Source: Anadara kagoshimensis | Lineage: Eukaryota; Mollusca; Bivalvia; Arcoida; Arcidae | NCBI GenBank assembly: GCA_021292105.1 | Contig: CM037871.1 | Location: 60,286,866-60,350,865 of the forward strand | DNA: 64,000 nucleotides | Direction: 5' to 3' | Shown: positions 4,701-53,529 of the stretch, in pieces | How the letters are laid out: every line of letters begins with the position of its first letter | How positions within the stretch are numbered: the first letter of the stretch is position 1 | Made by a program: the position numbers and the translations under genes | The notes under the pieces: generated by a model | What the model saw: only the letters and a program-made list of their open reading frames with translations | Databases searched by the model: none | What the model was told of the DNA's origin: nothing

Positions 4701-5278
4701 CAATAAAATAACTGAATTATGAAATCAAATTAAGGCTAAATTGTGATATTTTCTGGTTTCTGTAAATGTTGTTTCTGTATTTACATAGTTTTCTCTTTAA
4801 TTTTTCATATCAAATATCTGTAGAAATAAGTACAATAACAAGCATGAACAGAGCTTCTGCTTAAGAATGGAAATATTTCTTATATTCTTGTTATTGTCGA
4901 GTTTTGTTTGTTTTGAAAAATAGTTGCGTTGGTTATTCAAATAAATATCTTCTAATTTGATCAATATATTGATTCACCCACTTTCAAATTCTTTTATTGG
5001 TTAATTAGAAAAGTAAGCTTTGTAATATATAAACTCTCTCTCTATCTTTCTCTTTCTCTCTCTTACAGTTCAACTTATATTCTATACGGTTCCAAACATA
5101 ATGTGTAATCGAAACATTATGATCAATCAATCACTAAAGCATACAGTAGTTCACGAAAACTAGGATAATTTGTAAAATTTTGTCAGCTCGACGTCATAAC
5201 ATTGTAATTGCATTCAGAAAAATGTCACTTCTAATTTGTTAAAAAATATAAACAGATTTCTGACTGAGTGTTGGTAAT
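1705..5278. other. No recognisable gene
   Basis: AT-rich DNA with frames of under 90 codons that match nothing known. Apart from the 49-bp duplication at 4325, nothing is seen. Confidence 0.6.
4325..4412 (+). repeat. 49-bp direct duplication
   Basis: 'tatgaatatgaaaacatact' + 'gagacgagatacat' occurs at 4330 and 4379 without visible change, then runs into a short (AT)n. Confidence 0.85.
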
Positions 5279-5356
5279 CATCAAAAACAAACATACTAAT
5301 CCATTTCCGAATCACAATCCAGAAGCAAAGTAAAAACTTTGGAACTGACTGGTAAA
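5279..5356 (+). repeat. Family A 5' fragment
   Basis: Only the 5' end is present: 'aacaaacatactaatccatttccgaatcacaatcc' in pieces, then 'aaaactttggaactgac'. It stops before the core and abuts a family-B fragment. Confidence 0.7.
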
Positions 5357-5440
5357 TTAGGATATAACGAAATCCTTTAGGTACTGGGATAATTTGTTTT
5401 TGTTATAGGTCCTATTTTGATTAAAGTTTGATAAATACAA

Positions 5441-5488
5441 CGGATTAAATTCCTCATCACTAGTGCGCGGACGAAAGTTGTGGAAATC
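5441..5488 (-). repeat. Family B fragment
   Basis: 'aattcctcatcactagtgc' matches the family-B 3' region. Family B consensus order: 'aaggtatactccctcatgca', 'ttggtaaaatatattttggtcc', 'ttttggtccaagcactactg', 'gaggaattgtgttccgaaac', 'ccgtctagtgctgtaaaatt', 'aaaactggtataatatgt'. Confidence 0.5.
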
Positions 5489-5665
5489 AAAATAATTGTA
5501 CTTTGTTGAAATTAGAAAAACGGAAGTACAAAAAAGTATTTTACCAAAACTATCAAAGGCAATACGATCTAAGAAATAACCATTATTTTGTACGTAGCCT
5601 TTAATAAGCATTTATTTGATTTAATTATATCACATAATTCTCCCGTTTATTGATGTAATAAAACG

Positions 5666-5687
5666 GTGTAATATTTTCATATTACAC
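5666..5687. repeat. 9-bp perfect inverted repeat
   Basis: gtgtaatat (5666-5674) and atattacac (5679-5687) form a perfect stem with a 4-base loop. A third 'gtaatat' follows at about 5697. Together with the hairpin at 5727 it makes a structured 100-bp leader before the Crypton ATG. Confidence 0.6.
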
Positions 5688-5726
5688 AGGTAGCCATGTA
5701 ATATCACTTGATTGTGACGTAATCAA

Positions 5727-5760
5727 TTCTCACGCTTCTGATTGGTTTAAAGCGTGAGAA
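5727..5760. repeat. 11-bp stem hairpin upstream of Crypton fossil
   Basis: ttctcacgctt (5727-5737) pairs perfectly with aagcgtgagaa (5750-5760) around a 12-base loop. It lies 57 bases before the recombinase ATG. It could belong to the Crypton 5' leader or be an older hairpin; Cryptons have no terminal inverted repeats. Confidence 0.7.
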
Positions 5761-5817
5761 AAATATTCCTACGCCATTCACGTACTTCTTTTTATTACAA
5801 CTTTTACTACGTCCAAA

Positions 5818-7305
5818 ATGGCTGTATTTGATGTTGGGGATACTGTAAAAGTAGACGGAGAAGGAATTGGTATAGTGAAAGAAAATACTAGTATCCCTAA
5901 AGGGTTTGCAACATTCTATGATGTAATGATCTGTGGGACACAATTTGTAGTCGAATTAGAAAGCAGTCGCTTGACAATTGTCGCCCCACCTGAAGTTGAC
6001 CTTCATCACAGAAGACGGACCCTGGGCAGTCTGATGAAACTCCCGGACAAAGCAGGTTTATTCATGTATCTAATGAAGATATACAACCTTTCATTGAAAG
6101 TCTGGCCAACAAAAACATTTTGTCAAAGACCCACTATGATTTGAAGCTTTTATACAAATTTTTTGAGTTACCCTTTATTAACGAGAAACGAAAAATAAAC
6201 GAAATATCACTACTTGATTTGGCCTCTCTTGTGTCCAGATTTTTTTTATTAGTGTAAAAAAGCCGATGGATCTGACTATGAGCCTAACTCACTTAAGGGA
6301 ATGAAACAAATAAATAAAAACAAGCAGCTTTGGGTAATTTAGCACGCAAAAGTGACCCCGTCGAAAAAGATGAAGTGGATTTATTATGGTCAAGTGGCCA
6401 ATAAGGATTGCATTCTCATGACACCATACTACAAACATTGTGATTTTACAATACTGTCCACTTCCGTTTACGAGGGTCATCTGAACACCACCAAATGTGT
6501 TGGGAAGATGTTGCTTTACAATCTAAAACTGACGGTCACGAATATTTAAAAATGACCGAAAGGCAAACTAAAACAAGAACTGGGATTAATCCACGTGATA
6601 TGAGTGTTGTTACATCAAAACTCTAAGCAAATTAAGAAAATCCAGATCCTTTTACAGTAAAATTTATAAGAAATATGCAGACAAACGTCCATCTGATTAT
6701 TGTCAGCCAGATTCGCAATTTTCATTGCTTCATCAACAAAACACAACACTGCTCCTGGTGATATGTGGTTCAAAAAACAAAATGTTGGGTTAAAAAAACT
6801 TTGCAATTTTATGAAACGTATGGTTAAAGCTGCAGGTATAGAGACTGATAAAAAATTAACAAACCACTGTGCACGAAAATATCTTGTGCAAAAATTAAAT
6901 GAAAGTAATGTATCCGCCAAATCATGCAAATTTCAGGACACAAAACATTTCCTTGATAGATAACTACAGTCACATCAACCATGATCAGAATTAGCAGATT
7001 TCCCGACTTCTACATACAGAAAATGAAAATTCAGTCATACTTTCATCTTCAACTGCAAATATAGGAAATATTTTACATCCAACCAGCCTAAATCAACAGT
7101 GGCATCAACTTTAACTGTGGCATCAACTTTGCCAATGACATCATCAAATCTTCATGTTTTTGGTGGATTCCAGAATATTTTCGGTGCGCCGGTATCTGGT
7201 GGTAACTTCAACATTCATATTCATCAATCTAACCCACAGATGCCACCAAGAAAACGCATCTGTAGGCGAATTATTGAATCCGACAGTGACTCTCAGTCTC
7301 AGTAG
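5818..7305 (+). pseudogene. Decayed Crypton-like DUF3504 tyrosine recombinase
   Basis: Fossil of a DNA-cutting tyrosine recombinase of the kind carried by Crypton transposons and by the domesticated KIAA1958/ZMYM/QRICH1-type DUF3504 proteins. It starts with ATG in a good context (CAAAATGG) at 5818, and the first 80 or so codons are open. Family motifs then appear in changing frames: EKRKINEI (6183-6206), HFRLRG with the likely first catalytic Arg (6459-6476), ERQTKTRTG (6558-6584), NHCARK as the HxxR motif (6862-6879), SGHK as the second His (6933-6944), and NYSHIN with the catalytic Tyr codon at 6965-6967. A Ser/Thr-rich tail ends in a basic PRKRICRR patch and an acidic-Ser stretch (7099-7305). 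At least six frameshifts and several stops break it, so it cannot make the enzyme. Motif recognition is from memory of the family. The N-terminal part before about 6070 is assigned by continuity only. Confidence 0.85.
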
Positions 7306-7649
7306 AAAGATCAACACACAGTGACATCATTTGTAGTGGTCGCGCCTAATGACGTCATATAAAAACTATGTCAGTCTGTTATTTTAAGACTTTTGAAGAC
7401 TTTCCAATTCTTTGAAAAATAATTTTGATGAATTCGAAGAAATATAAGATAATTTGAACTTACATACTGATTTTGTCTTTTTTATTTTAGGTGATAAATT
7501 TACTTTTACTATAACTAAATAGAACTATATTCTTACTTGCGCAGTTAAATTGGAGGTGATTTGTCTGACCTACATAGAAATCAGCTGTTTCTATATGGCA
7601 TCAAATAATATGTTCATGTCATTGTGACTCGGTATTTTGAGTTATGTGA

Positions 7650-7724
7650 TATATAGAATCTTATACTCGTGAGGGTTTAATATGAAATTTATTAAACCCC
7701 CACTCGTCTAAGATCCTCTATATA
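7650..7724. mobile_element. 75-bp fold-back element
   Basis: Left 'tatagaatcttatactcgt' plus 'gagggtttaat' pairs with right 'attaaacccccactcg' plus 'tctaagatcctctatata', about 32-bp arms with a few mismatches and a loop of about 10 bases. Typical of a very short MITE or a MITE end; it lies about 270 bp past the Crypton fossil. Confidence 0.65.
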
Positions 7725-9357
7725 TTTTACCCCCCTCTGTGTGAAGACCTCCGATTGTTGAGATTTAAAAGGACATCGCCATTTTTCCTATTCATTTGGC
7801 ATAATGGTATAAGAAAGAAAGAAATGGCCAATTATTCCAAGATAACTAAAAAGAGCATCAATTTCATTCATACCTCAGTGACTAATGAAGACATTTATGA
7901 ATACTAATAGTAACTGATAACATTTATATCTGAGTAATATCTTCTATAACTAGACACAATGAATTCATCTACAGAAAAAATGTATATGTTTTGTTCAAGG
8001 TTCTGTGACTTGTACAAAAAAGCTATGTCAAATCGATGGCGCAATTTTTATTTTATTTTCCACTCTTGGAATTCTGGCTTCTATACAATTATGCCTAATA
8101 AAACACTTTCCCTTGCTGTGCTTCAAACTACGAGTTTTCTCTGTCTTTCATTTGTATCCTCTTTTTAGCCATATATCATGTATATTGCAATCCAATTTTG
8201 AAGCTTTGTCCTTCAATTTATTTACAATCCAGGTATAAGTATGTTTTTTATTCAGATAATTTCTATCCTTAATGAACTGATATTTCTTACCCCCAATCCT
8301 CAGTTTCAGTTTTGACTTAAGAAAACTGCATGTCATTTTGGTCATTTGGATGAGTTGCAACTTTACTGATGTTATGGTTGTGGCTATACTGGTTTGTAAG
8401 TATCAGTGTTTCACTAACATCATAAACACTCAATTACAATAGCAAAATCAAAATTTGTTACTGGATAACATTTATTTGGGAACAGCCAACGCAATGAAAA
8501 ACAGGAGACAAAAAGTTACAGAAAATTCTAACAAATAACAAAAACACGTATTTGAACTACCGATGATAAATCCCTCTATTAGAAACGGGTTTTTGTTCAA
8601 TAGTGTTGTAAAGAAGAGCTAATTATTTTAATGGTTGTATAACCAGTACAAACTTCTATATTACAAGTACGTGTGATAAACCAACTTATTGATACCCATG
8701 GACCGATGATAGTTCTGGCATTCCTCACCTAAATATATAAATAAAGCGATACTTTGCTCCTTGATACTTTTTTAAAAATTAAGTCAAGATGTATCTGTTA
8801 TATACAAATGTATATTTATATCGTATATATTTTTGAATGTTTATGTATATGCTAGGAAACATTACAGAATGTATTAATATAGATCATGAATAAAAATACA
8901 AATACCAAAAATGTTTCTTTAAAGATATCGCCTCTAAAACTGGACAGTATAAAATTTAAAACTTCAGTGATTGTTACTATCAAACATATTGGGTATTTTA
9001 TTCTCGCTATCACACAAAGAAATATTTCTACCACGTTCATGCTTTTTTCAGTATAAGAATTTATTAATTTACATGTGTGCCAATGTTCTAAACGATTTAG
9101 GAGCTATTGACATAAAAAACGAATGCAATAAAGTAGGATAAAATTACGAATCATTTATATGTTTTCATTCACATGTTTAAATATTTTATGTTACAATTAC
9201 AAAGCGTTTCCATCGTTATACAAATATATGATAAGTTTGTTCACCTCCGACATGTTTATTATTTGAAAATTAAAAAACCTTCGCCTAAAGCGATTGTGTG
9301 AAAATGTATAAAACATAAACTGCTCTCTACATTTGCTGCTAGTTAAAAACTAAATAT
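7725..9357. other. No recognisable gene
   Basis: AT-rich, only short unrelated frames; no repeat shared with the rest of the window was seen. Confidence 0.6.
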
Positions 9358-13973: not shown

Positions 13974-14140
13974 AATAGAATCTGTCACCTGTTTGTGACC
14001 GATACCGCATGATCTCAGTCGAGGGTGATGTGATGTAACATATCCCAATCGAGGCTTTGCCGAGATTGGGATTTGTTACATCACGTCACCCGAGACTGAG
14101 ATCAACCCGTATCGGTCACAAACAGGTGACAGATTCTATT
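13974..14140. mobile_element. 167-bp hairpin element, copy 1
   Basis: Arms of about 80 bp: 'aatagaatctgtcacctg' to 'caatcgagg' pairs with 'ccgagattg' to 'caggtgacagattctatt', with a small loop 'ctttg'. Fold-back or MITE type. A 76-codon frame at 14057 is accidental. Confidence 0.85.
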
Positions 14141-14487
14141 TCTCGTACCATTAAAGTGTTTATAACTGATACGCACAAGGCAAAACACATACCCTCATGG
14201 GACCTCTTGCATTCCTTTAGACACCTAAAGCATTGTACAAATCCGCCCTTTGAAAATAATCCCATCGACAACTCTTCAAAATTTTAAAATATCAACGATT
14301 TTGTATTCAATGCAAATATGAAACAACTGTGACAATAAAATAGTTTGAATTAAATAAAATAAAACATATAATTTGAAAATAAATAAAGAAATCTTTTGTT
14401 TTGATGACGTCATGCGCAATGATCGGATACGTCATCCTGATTGTTCAATTGTCGCGTTAGGCAGTACCAGACAAACTGGACAAGACT

Positions 14488-14655
14488 AATAGAATCTGTC
14501 ACCTGTTTGTGACCGATACCGTATGATCTCAGTCGAGGGTGATGTGATGTAACATATATCCCAATCGAGGCTTTGCCGAGTTTGGGATATGTTACATCAC
14601 ATCATCCGAGACTGAGATCAAACCGTATCGGTCACAAACAGGTGACAGATTTTAT
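14488..14655. mobile_element. 168-bp hairpin element, copy 2
   Basis: Second copy of the hairpin at 13974, with a few changes in each arm ('gagtttggg' for 'gagattggg', 'gattttatt' for 'gattctatt'). Confidence 0.85.
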
Positions 14656-14998
14656 TTCTCGTACCATTAAAGTGTTTATAACTGTGATACCTACAAAACA
14701 AAACACGTACCCTCATGGCGCCTCTTGCATTCTTTTGGGCAACTAATGCATTGTACAAATCCGCCCTTTGAAAATAATCCCATCGACAACTCTTCAAAAT
14801 TTTAAAATATCAACAATTTGTATTCAATGCAAATATAAAACAACTCTAACAATGAAATATTTGAATAAAAAATAAAATAAAACACATATTTGAATAATAA
14901 ATAAAGTATCGCTTTGTATTGGTGACGTCAAGCACAACGATCGCATACGTCATCCTGATTGTTCTATAGTCGCGTGAGGCAGTACCAGACAAACTGGA

Positions 14999-15111
14999 CA
15001 AGACAGAAAAATCTAGCACTGGCGTGTGCGTGAGATTTTTCTGTCCGAGGTACGAGAAAGAAAAATCTAGCACTGGTTTGCACGTGAGATTTTTCTGTCC
15101 GAGGTTCGAGA
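14999..15111. repeat. Two tandem small hairpins
   Basis: 'agaaaaatctagcactgg'..'gtgagatttttctgtc' occurs twice (15004-15045 and 15058-15102), each able to fold on itself, each followed by 'cgagg(t)(a/t)cgagaaa', which echoes the 'ttctcgtacc' of the 515-bp unit. Confidence 0.8.
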
Positions 15112-15427
15112 AACGCGTATCTCACATGACCGCGTGACCTTGAGTGACGTTTCGATCAAAAGACAATTACATGACGTCATCATGTTGAGAACATGGCGTC
15201 ATATTGCGGGAAAATGACATCCAATCTTTCAAAATTTAGAAATTTTGAGTGCATTTCAAATGTTAACTATTGGATTTTTATACATGTTGTATAAACCAAA
15301 ATCCGGTACAATCTTTCCAACGGTCTTACTTATTTCAAAGAAGAATGTCGAATTACAAAGTAAGATTTTTCAAACATGGCGTCGATGTCTATGTTTATCG
15401 TACGTGAAGCCAAATATTGGCACTATT

Positions 15428-15574
15428 CCATTATGAGTTTATCCATGTAGGACAGGTAAATCTCACCCTCGGGGTTGAACATTTCTGTTCAGAGACTCGG
15501 TAATCCTTGTCGCAGACTAAAATCTTCAACCCCTCGGGTAATATTTCCCTATCCTACATGGATACGTATAATGG
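15428..15574. mobile_element. 147-bp inverted-repeat element
   Basis: 'ccattatgagtttatccatg' through 'ctcggggttgaa' pairs with 'ttcaacccctcgggtaatat' through 'catggatacgtataatgg': about 50-bp imperfect arms and a loop of about 45-50 bp. 12830-12880 has a faint relative ('caccctcgggac', 'accctatcctat'). Confidence 0.75.
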
Positions 15575-15747
15575 ATTCTTATAATCTCCAGGATTTTTGA
15601 TAAGTTGATATGTTCATCACATTGGTCACTGTGAAACCGACTATATGCGTATGTTCATTATCCAGTGAGCAACTTTGTCTCAACTTTCATTCTAAGTAAG
15701 TTAAAAAGTAAGTAATGAAATCGTTATCAAAAACACACTATCAATTT

Positions 15748-46172: not shown

Positions 46173-46399
46173 TCTCGCATAGCGATTGGTTAACTTGCCG
46201 GGGTACATGGAACTATGTTCGGAAATCTGCCGGGGTACATGGACGCACGCGACGTTTAGCGGTAAAAGGGAAGTAACTCGTACATCGCTGACGTCTAGTT
46301 ACAGTAAACAAACATGGCGACAACGTACGCAAGTCACACAAAATACGAAATGGAAGTTAAAAAGATCCAACTGGTAACGCTTTGAATGGTGACAAAAAC

Positions 46400-46536
46400 G
46401 TTATACAGGGCTTTGGCAGGTTACACGGCCCCATGTACCCCGTCAAAGATGAATGTACCCTTCGCCTGCGGCTCAGGGTACATAAATCTTTGACGGGGTA
46501 CATGGGGCCGTGTAACCTGCCAAAGCCCTGTATAAC
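46400..46536. mobile_element. Perfect palindrome, 51-bp arms
   Basis: 46400-46450 ('gttatacagggctttggcag'...) is the exact inverse of 46486-46536 (...'ctgccaaagccctgtataac'). The loop has an inner 'tgtaccc'/'gggtaca' pair and a C/G-rich tip. 'gccggggtacatgg' occurs twice just upstream (46196, 46233), echoing the arm, so the element may begin near 46190. It is less AT-rich than its surroundings. Confidence 0.9.
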
Positions 46537-46732
46537 TTATATTGGAACCATTGTATTTTAGAATTTAGAGTAGTCAGGTGAATTATTTTGTATATTTATT
46601 TCCAATCATTTTCAGTTAATTATCAAAAAATGCTTTGCCATTTTTGCCGTGAAGTAGGTAAGATATTATTTTGCTTACATCTCCTTACATCTTACATCTG
46701 TTTTTAAAATCATGTTGGTGTAAAAAGATGTT

Positions 46733-52585: not shown

Positions 52586-52668
52586 TATAATTTGTGCATA
52601 TTGGTCATCTGTATTACCGAAAGTCCATAGTCAAACACTAACAGCTACAATGAATTCATTACAATTGA

Positions 52669-52942
52669 AATTAGCATCTGAAAGTAACGAATAAATGCTT
52701 GTAAGTTTAACATAAGAGCATTTGAGACAATCAAAACAAAAACCTTTTTATCAATAAAAGATAATTTCAAAATCTTTGAATAGGGATCCATGACAGGGCT
52801 GTTGAATAATATAAACAACCCTTTCATGAGACCCCTAATCATTGATTATCTTTTATTGATAAAAACGGTTTTTGTTTTGATTGTCTTAAATACTCTGATG
52901 TTAAACTTGCGCGCTTTCGTTCGCTACTTTCGGATGCTAATT
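52669..52942. mobile_element. 274-bp hairpin element
   Basis: Arms of about 100 bp: 'aattagcatctgaaagta'..'ttatcaataaaagataat' against 'attatcttttattgataa'..'tactttcggatgctaatt', with scattered differences. The loop carries a second hairpin ('agggctgtt'/'aacaaccct'). A 65-codon reverse frame in it is accidental. Confidence 0.9.
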
Positions 52943-53529
52943 GCAAATTAATATTATTACATTAATTGAACTCGTTAACAATTTGTCACACCCTAAATGC
53001 AAAAACAAAACAAAAACACAACGCACTTTAAATCGTTGTCTTTTAATGAATGATAGTTTTTGTTTGTAGCTAAATGAGCCAAACATAAAATTTCTTAGTA
53101 AACGTTATTAAACTCTAAATGAGGTAACATTTAAAACAAAAGCTGATAATTGCTTTGTTAAACGATACGAAAATGGCACGTTGGAAGACGATGGATCAAA
53201 ATCTTATTCAAATATTTGGTTTATGCTGAAGAATCGGTGTTTAGTTTAGTTTTAATCTTCGTTGTGTATGACATGTGTTTATCATCACCACAGAATTCAT
53301 CAATGACTTAAATTACCGTTAAATGCCTTACATATGACTTTGGGGTTACACTGGGTACATTGAGACAATGTGCCAGGTTTGTATATTTGACCTTCTTGCA
53401 CTTACCATGCCAGTGTTTCACGATGTGTTAAAGCAGTGTCTTGTTCATTTTTATGTTTAGAAATTCGAACCAGATATTTTTATATGGCTTAGAAAATCAA
53501 ACCAATAAGTCGTTAAATGATAATATTCT

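Follow-up and report, generated by a model that had tools for sequence, protein, structure and literature searches.

The window locus

The window, by which we mean the whole stretch of 64,000 nucleotides that was analysed (G000:C15:60286866-60350865), contains at positions 5626-7721 a decayed Crypton, that is, a DNA transposon with a tyrosine-recombinase gene, approximately 2.1 kb in length compared to about 2.28 kb in its intact relatives L040 and L041. As such, the finding in the window is ordinary, a dead Crypton. Its features are listed below, with A and B denoting the two termini of the element, A' and B' the segments complementary to them, and ICR the internal complementary region.

5626..7721, plus strand: whole element, with ends common to independent copies among L040-L050 and L059-L066; GATCCTCTAT ends at 7721
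5626..5640, plus strand: 5' terminus A, TATATCACATAATTC, TATAT core first; 14 of 15 bases complementary to A'
5818..7305, plus strand: broken tyrosine-recombinase gene (DUF3504/Crypton), with 9 frame-shifting indels relative to an intact copy
6459..6476, plus strand: HFRLRG, first catalytic Arg box; Arg invariant in 7/7 aligned families
6862..6879, plus strand: NHCARK, box II His and Arg; Arg invariant in 7/7 families, His in 3/7
6933..6944, plus strand: SGHK, third catalytic box (His); His invariant in 7/7 families
6962..6979, plus strand: NYSHIN, catalytic Tyr; Tyr invariant in 7/7 families
7639..7653, plus strand: A', GAGTTATGTGATATA, the 5' terminus in inverted form; left half of the ICR
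7654..7721, plus strand: what is left of the 3' palindrome (B', loop, B), which as cut spans about 151 nt in intact relatives
7703..7721, plus strand: 3' terminus B, ending ...CTAAGATCCTC-TAT

Most of the original prediction for this locus stands. The four motifs lie where it had located them and follow one another in the order given, distributed over three forward frames, between an open N-terminus that starts at ATG 5818 (MAVFDVG) and a C-terminal Ser/Asp tail, RICRRIIESDSDSQSQ, that ends at 7302. The proposed dead Crypton insertion is borne out by the intact copy L041, which matches both DUF3504 and Phage_integrase (Pfam E values of 6.5e-29 and 6e-11), by ends that copies share, and by the existence of empty sites. 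The intact relatives that were to be looked for in the same genome are L040 and L041, and alignment of copies supplied the ends of the element; the earlier extent of 5640 to 7400 had missed both of them.

A chance match of the motifs is ruled out by the Pfam DUF3504 match, the score of the locus in its own genome, and the existence of a copy (L041) that is 94.4% identical in DNA sequence (1974/2090 aligned bases) and has an uninterrupted frame. The piece 6444-6623 alone matches DUF3504 with an E value of 3e-5 and 24.6 bits, under the curated cut-off of 29.7, and in a profile search of the complete genome (1.115 Gb, 36 contigs) the window locus scores 50 bits, over the cut-off, at G000:C15:60293243-60293527. 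At least 150 DUF3504 places were scored in this genome among 406 candidates, 150/150 of them above the curated cut-off. DNA copies of the window locus are likewise plentiful (at least 80 matches, with 40 scored out of 1055 candidates).

The recombinase gene

The intact copies of the same family (family 1), L040 and L041, have a single long frame each, uninterrupted over 547 codons from stop to stop (527 amino acids from the Met in L041), with the motifs in frame as HFGLRG, TNHSARK, SGHK and NNYSHIN. All residues of the catalytic R-H-R-Y set are thus in frame in L040 and L041 and readable in the window copy. Three intact relatives match DUF3504 with E values of 6.5e-29, 5.1e-24 and 7.5e-32, and Pfam scans of these three proteins gave neither a reverse transcriptase or other enzyme nor a C-terminal domain over the cut-off. 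Across seven aligned families R269, R404, H427 and Y436 are invariant, and the box II His is kept in 3/7; the six other lineages with an ICR that were aligned (L007 was left out) have 31-57% protein identity to family 1. No PDB match of note was found for the first 62 residues (window 5818-6003; best E 0.98) and no Pfam match for the first 108 codons. These 62 residues can be aligned to family 2 and, with a poorer fit, to L068 and L070. In viral contigs, 82 stretches matched a pattern for relatives, and 0 of them encode one.

The largest of the nine frame shifts that separate the window gene from L041 is an 88-bp coding deletion near 6305. An intron at window 6304, where relatives are about 90 bp longer, was considered and rejected; the sequence is coding and open in L040 and L041 and was lost from the window copy and from its sister copy L039 (C15:61.65 Mb). 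The same two copies lack the middle 83 bp of the 3' palindrome. L039 is 95.8% identical to the window copy (1994/2082) and has 9/15 of the indels listed for it, including 6/9 of its frame shifts; the match extends into the flanks, at 94.6-95.7% in three pieces within 5001-8498. Because the two loci share flanks as well as indels, the insertion must already have been broken when the region was duplicated.

The suggestion that decay was uneven, or that the N-terminal part has a separate history, finds no support in the placement of indels, the density of substitutions, or the frames of L040 and L041. The first 178 bp of the frame (1584 bp in all) are free of the 9 frame-shifting indels, an outcome with a probability of ~34% under random placement, and the density of substitutions relative to L041 is 0.048 per base for codons 1-62 and 0.062 for the remainder. 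Both L040 and L041 have the same N-terminus as the window copy, in one frame with the rest of the gene.

Ends of the element and empty sites

According to the aligned copies, family 1 elements start with TATATCACATAACTC (window 5626) and end with CTAAGATCCTC-TAT (window 7721). Flanks were joined for 16 copies and five of these were searched for empty sites, which were found for 4/5. In the two cleanest cases the target is a single TATA (L049) and a single TATAT (L040), and consequently the element is flanked by a direct repeat of 4-5 bp with no other duplication. L041 and L043 matched more divergent targets where the core is less clear; the flanks of L044 matched only L044 itself and its duplicate L046. 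L070 is inserted in a tandem satellite with a unit of ~53 bp (by eye), where the target is TATTT, and the insertion point of L068 is crossed by 23/28 host repeats among those listed, with a 3-bp overlap. Short direct repeats as recombination substrate and no other target duplication, the pattern by which a Crypton is recognised, are thus found at L049, L040 and L070. The related copies are ~2.2-2.6 kb long and have one tyrosine-recombinase gene each. Identity among copies is 98-99.8% in family 2 and 94-99% in family 3. Simple inverted terminal repeats were rejected as a description of the ends, A being repeated inside the element and not at its opposite end, and by eye there is no complementarity between A and B.

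The internal complementary region

The layout of the element is A ... A'-core-B' - hairpin - B, where A' is an inverted copy of A that directly precedes a palindrome ending in B. Since A' stands before B' and B is the 3' end, the segment A'-core-B' is the reverse complement of the B-core-A joint that an excised circle would have. In family 1 (L041), the reverse complement of the ICR reads TATAAGATTC-TATATAT-CACATAACTC, and the ends of the element are CTAAGATCCTC-TAT and TATAT-CACATAACTC.

An ICR is seen in 8 of the 11 Crypton lineages read, with differing A and B sequences: families 1, 2 (L003) and 3 (L008), L067, L069, L070, L007 and L068, the last with ICR and palindrome in reverse orientation relative to the gene. 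As for the other three, L071 and L072 have the palindrome, in sequence that stops short of their 5' ends, and L001 (G000:C5:11018919-11022380) does not show the module on its 3' side, where there is a 47-bp palindrome. L001 has a 111-bp palindrome with CGAG boxes upstream of its DUF3504 gene and could be another reversed form. The sample was not random: L001-L008 are the eight top-scoring DUF3504 places, and L067-L072 were chosen for long frames or a tandem arrangement.

The length of A' ranges from 10 to 26 bases. Across the eight lineages, A agrees with its own A' at 10-12/12 bases, compared to a mean of 7.7 and a maximum of 10 for A' of foreign families. The value of 10 arises between families 1 and 3, whose A sequences are alike (10/12), so that the lineages are not fully independent; the own match of L068 is also just 10. 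In 7/8 lineages the ends were fixed independently of the A/A' match: by multiple copies (families 1 and 2), start and stop positions common to many copies (family 3, L067, L069), a host repeat (L068) or the interrupted satellite (L070). The ends of L007 come from the match alone. In family 3, L067, L069 and L007, A was first located through the match, and independent ends followed for the first three.

As a positional control, 15 bases were compared at 32 offsets at each of 40 random places in the window; the best match was 11 at 9 places, 12 at 24, 13 at 6 and 14 at 1. The 14/15 match of the decayed window copy is therefore weak by itself, and the case for the ICR rests on the sequences of intact copies and of the other lineages. 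This control is blind to short A repeats, because an L070-type element in which two palindromes carry the module gave just 12. Within the single genome read, the end architecture is robust.

A non-autonomous element of the L070 lineage lies at window 13974-15113 on the minus strand, with TTTCTCGAACCTCGG as its 5' end and two tandem palindromes (13974-14140 and 14488-14656), 514 bp apart, each with an A'B' module; its 5' end includes the 54-bp tandem array at 15001-15113. Further palindromes in the window are found at 15427-15575 (149 bp), 46385-46552 (168 bp) and 52665-52946 (282 bp), for which the same control, with its blindness to short A, gave 11-12/15 and no ICR match above background.

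The palindrome and its polarity

Palindromes of at least 78 bp stand beside the gene in 10/11 lineages read. As cut, they measure 151 nt in most intact family 1 copies, 146 in family 2, 167 in family 3, 152 in L067, 149 in L069, 165 in L070, 156 in L068, 178 in L071, 159 in L072 and 78 in L007; palindromes in these elements reach ~190 bp. Most palindromes are directional because the stem is broken where one CTCG box faces another. Counted in one copy per lineage, the ratio of CTCG to CGAG in eight lineages is 6:0, 4:0, 4:0, 4:0, 3:0, 4:0, 1:0 and 2:0, or 28:0 in sum, against a window background of 62:61. The palindromes of L071 and L072 have neither box (0:0). A search pattern for family 1 palindromes was tried on 20 copies and missed two (L061 and L066), and the 18/18 that it matched have CTCG only.

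The polarity is not strictly kept, since it is partly lost in 4/5 further family 3 copies read (L076, L078, L079 and L080), where the boxes in one arm read like those of the other arm. The sequences suggest arm-to-arm conversion, as would be expected if a strand folds and its mismatches are repaired. The predicted difference in folding energy between the two strands is small outside family 1 and at most 1.6 kcal/mol in 9/11 palindromes, the exceptions being family 3 (4.7 kcal/mol) and L071 (4.4 kcal/mol in the opposite sense).

Three family 3 copies (L076, L077 and L078, of the L008 lineage) stop just past the hairpin tip, or palindrome centre, with GTGCGCTG followed by other sequence, as if the palindrome had opened at the tip; in L076 and L078 the left arm partly equals the reverse of the right arm. 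A terminus at the hairpin tip was considered for the elements and not adopted.

Internally deleted copies

The module is kept in internally deleted copies, and in the L067 and L008 lineages it is a sharply bounded unit. Sixteen matches in the L067 lineage share a segment (2291 to 2477-2488) that opens 3 bases ahead of A' and runs to the 3' end; 15/16 have a 5' part nearby, and in the three that were read nothing else matches the full element. In the L008 lineage the module is common to 31 matches, 28 of which begin exactly at 2414, 10 bases before A', and a 5' part accompanies 29 by a hand count from the list of matches as opposed to a reading of individual copies. Family 1 has 14/14 internally deleted sites of one type that keep the 5' 320 bp and a 3' part, as detected with a query that ended before the palindrome; among eight deleted copies read, five have the whole palindrome and the other three lack a portion of it or of A'. 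Deleted types in the L069 lineage have longer 3' parts.

Joints, nested insertions and inversions

Two head-to-tail tandems of L069-lineage elements contain a B-core-A joint in the chromosome. The joint reads TATTTAT (TATTTAA in one of them) compared to TTTAT in the ICR, the core being 2 bases longer. The insertion point of L002, a member of family 2, is the ICR core of an L007-like element. In four colinear copies of the L068 lineage, including L068, the palindrome lies 5' of the gene and its CTCG polarity is reversed; in L070, the N-terminus of which resembles that of L068, it is found on the 3' side. Among the copies read, no single family was seen with both gene orientations. Judged from the list of matches, two L068-lineage copies, G000:C10:35246506-35248723 and 35572150-35574816, have additional end pieces in inverted orientation on the far side of the palindrome; a second palindrome is present at the opposite end in one of the two.

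Discussion

To our knowledge, it is not known how Cryptons increase in number. We propose, with a rough probability of 0.6, that the window element is a dead copy from a Crypton family whose members would be excised as circles and integrated at the core, and in which the ICR and hairpin would constitute a second, foldable attachment site. The parts of this proposal differ in strength. Comparison of the copies establishes the gene content, the insertion at an A/T-rich core without other duplication, and the layout A ... A'-core-B' - hairpin - B. It is strongly indicated, with two B-core-A tandems in the chromosome, that the recombinase joins both ends of the element across the core, giving a circle with a B-core-A joint, which then integrates at a similar short core. 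The role of the hairpin is inferred, and the circle, the single-stranded form and transposition are all predictions from sequence. B' is paired with B in the palindrome and A' can pair with A, so that a single displaced strand could fold into a complete double-stranded attachment site. Such a folded site would be a strand-specific substrate of the recombinase, as for integron attC hairpins and the DIRS1 ICR, and if one strand were circularised and the other stayed in place, the outcome would be copying as opposed to cut-and-paste. We consider this copying route possible, at somewhat less than even odds.

Alternatively, the ICR might work as in DIRS1, where a linear single strand or RNA copy would align both ends on A'B' as a splint or template; the ends would be joined and regenerated there, and the recombinase would only integrate the circle. 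The order and complementarity of the segments are the same as in DIRS1, so far as described in the available part of PMC3266345. However, a single tyrosine-recombinase gene takes up the intact family 1 element, Pfam detects no reverse transcriptase in the three intact proteins, and A' is short (10-26 bases), which makes this reading unlikely.

The yeast 2-micron plasmid has two inverted attachment sites, and recombination between them converts replication to amplification. Two inverted sites could serve Cryptons in a similar way: if the ICR recombined with an end, or if recombination took place inside the circle, the gene segment or the palindrome would be inverted and replication turned into amplification. 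The reversed CTCG and 5'-side palindrome of the L068 lineage (4 copies), compared to the 3' side in L070, are what an inversion between A and A' would be expected to produce. We nonetheless regard the idea as quite improbable: no family has been seen with both gene orientations, and frequent inversion would mix the boxes, whereas 18/18 family 1 palindromes contain CTCG only.

A passive or regulatory hairpin, such as an RNA 3' end, a source of small RNA or a protein-binding array, with A' as a by-product of its origin, would fit the strong hairpins predicted but would explain neither why A and A' agree in 8 lineages nor why the common 3' part of the L067 and L008 deleted copies starts 3 and 10 bases before A'; we think it very improbable. 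A broken host DUF3504 gene (KIAA1958/QRICH1/ZMYM-like) in place of a mobile element, which the best PDB sequence match, QRICH1 at 4.4e-13, might bring to mind, is already refuted by the empty sites, and the many copies, common ends, deleted derivatives and conserved catalytic residues speak against it as well.

Comparison with known systems

Judged by features as described in the available text of Kojima and Jurka 2011 (PMC3212892), the elements resemble CryptonA in being DNA transposons with a tyrosine recombinase only, in their DUF3504 kinship, in the lack of a C-terminal domain match in the three proteins scanned, and in having internally deleted derivatives, which in the L067 and L008 lineages are listed in larger numbers than full copies. 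They differ from CryptonA as described there in the 4-5-bp core, the inverted copy of the circle joint and the palindrome of up to ~190 bp. Unlike domesticated genes, they keep the catalytic R-H-R-Y set. The same source reports that terminal repeats were not found in animal Cryptons, so that the ends of these elements are hard to define, and a recognisable end module offers a way to find both the ends and the non-autonomous copies. A nematode-centred survey (PMC4157794) required repeats, in the part accessible, to be identical and 20 bp or longer, and would for that reason miss A/A'. We found no description of such an end module in Cryptons in the accessible literature, including available parts of PMC6681497, PMC4157794 and PMC5753468; Repbase reports and most subscription papers lie outside this search, and the priority of our description is not certain.

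Among bacterial systems, the integron attC is, in the portion of PMC3053210 at hand, a palindromic site used by a tyrosine recombinase, where bases left unpaired on folding matter for strand recognition; in the elements described here, the unpaired positions are the facing CTCG boxes, and use of a single strand is putative. SE-6945 is described in the available text of PMC9345347 as a tyrosine-recombinase element that forms a circular copy of one strand and leaves no empty donor site, and a hairpin module is absent from that description.

The closest topology is that of DIRS1. According to the accessible part of PMC3266345, DIRS1 has two ICRs near its 3' end whose sequences are complementary to the left and right termini and which overlap at a circular junction of 3 bp, and DIRS1-like elements integrate at an identical short sequence without duplication. 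The shared topology is thus an ICR near the 3' end that is complementary to both termini, with a short circular junction. DIRS1-like elements also have reverse transcriptase/RNase H and inverted terminal repeats, neither of which was found here (three proteins scanned), and the present elements are less than half as long, with a right end that is nearly fully palindromic. Having no reverse transcriptase, RNase H, gag or inverted terminal repeats, they were not filed as DIRS.

The end module points to a testable copying mechanism and is relevant to the origin of the DIRS ICR. Retrotransposons with a tyrosine recombinase have been proposed to derive from a Crypton and an LTR-type polymerase, as reported in the available text of PMC6681497 and PMC4157794. 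We put forward as a doubtful but consequential extension that animal Cryptons as a group may have at their end a strand-polar hairpin that contains the circle joint in inverted copy, and may transpose through the copying of a single folded strand, and that the ICR of DIRS may be inherited from such a Crypton. If so, the DIRS ICR would have come with the Crypton that captured a reverse transcriptase, and would not have evolved for retrotransposition.
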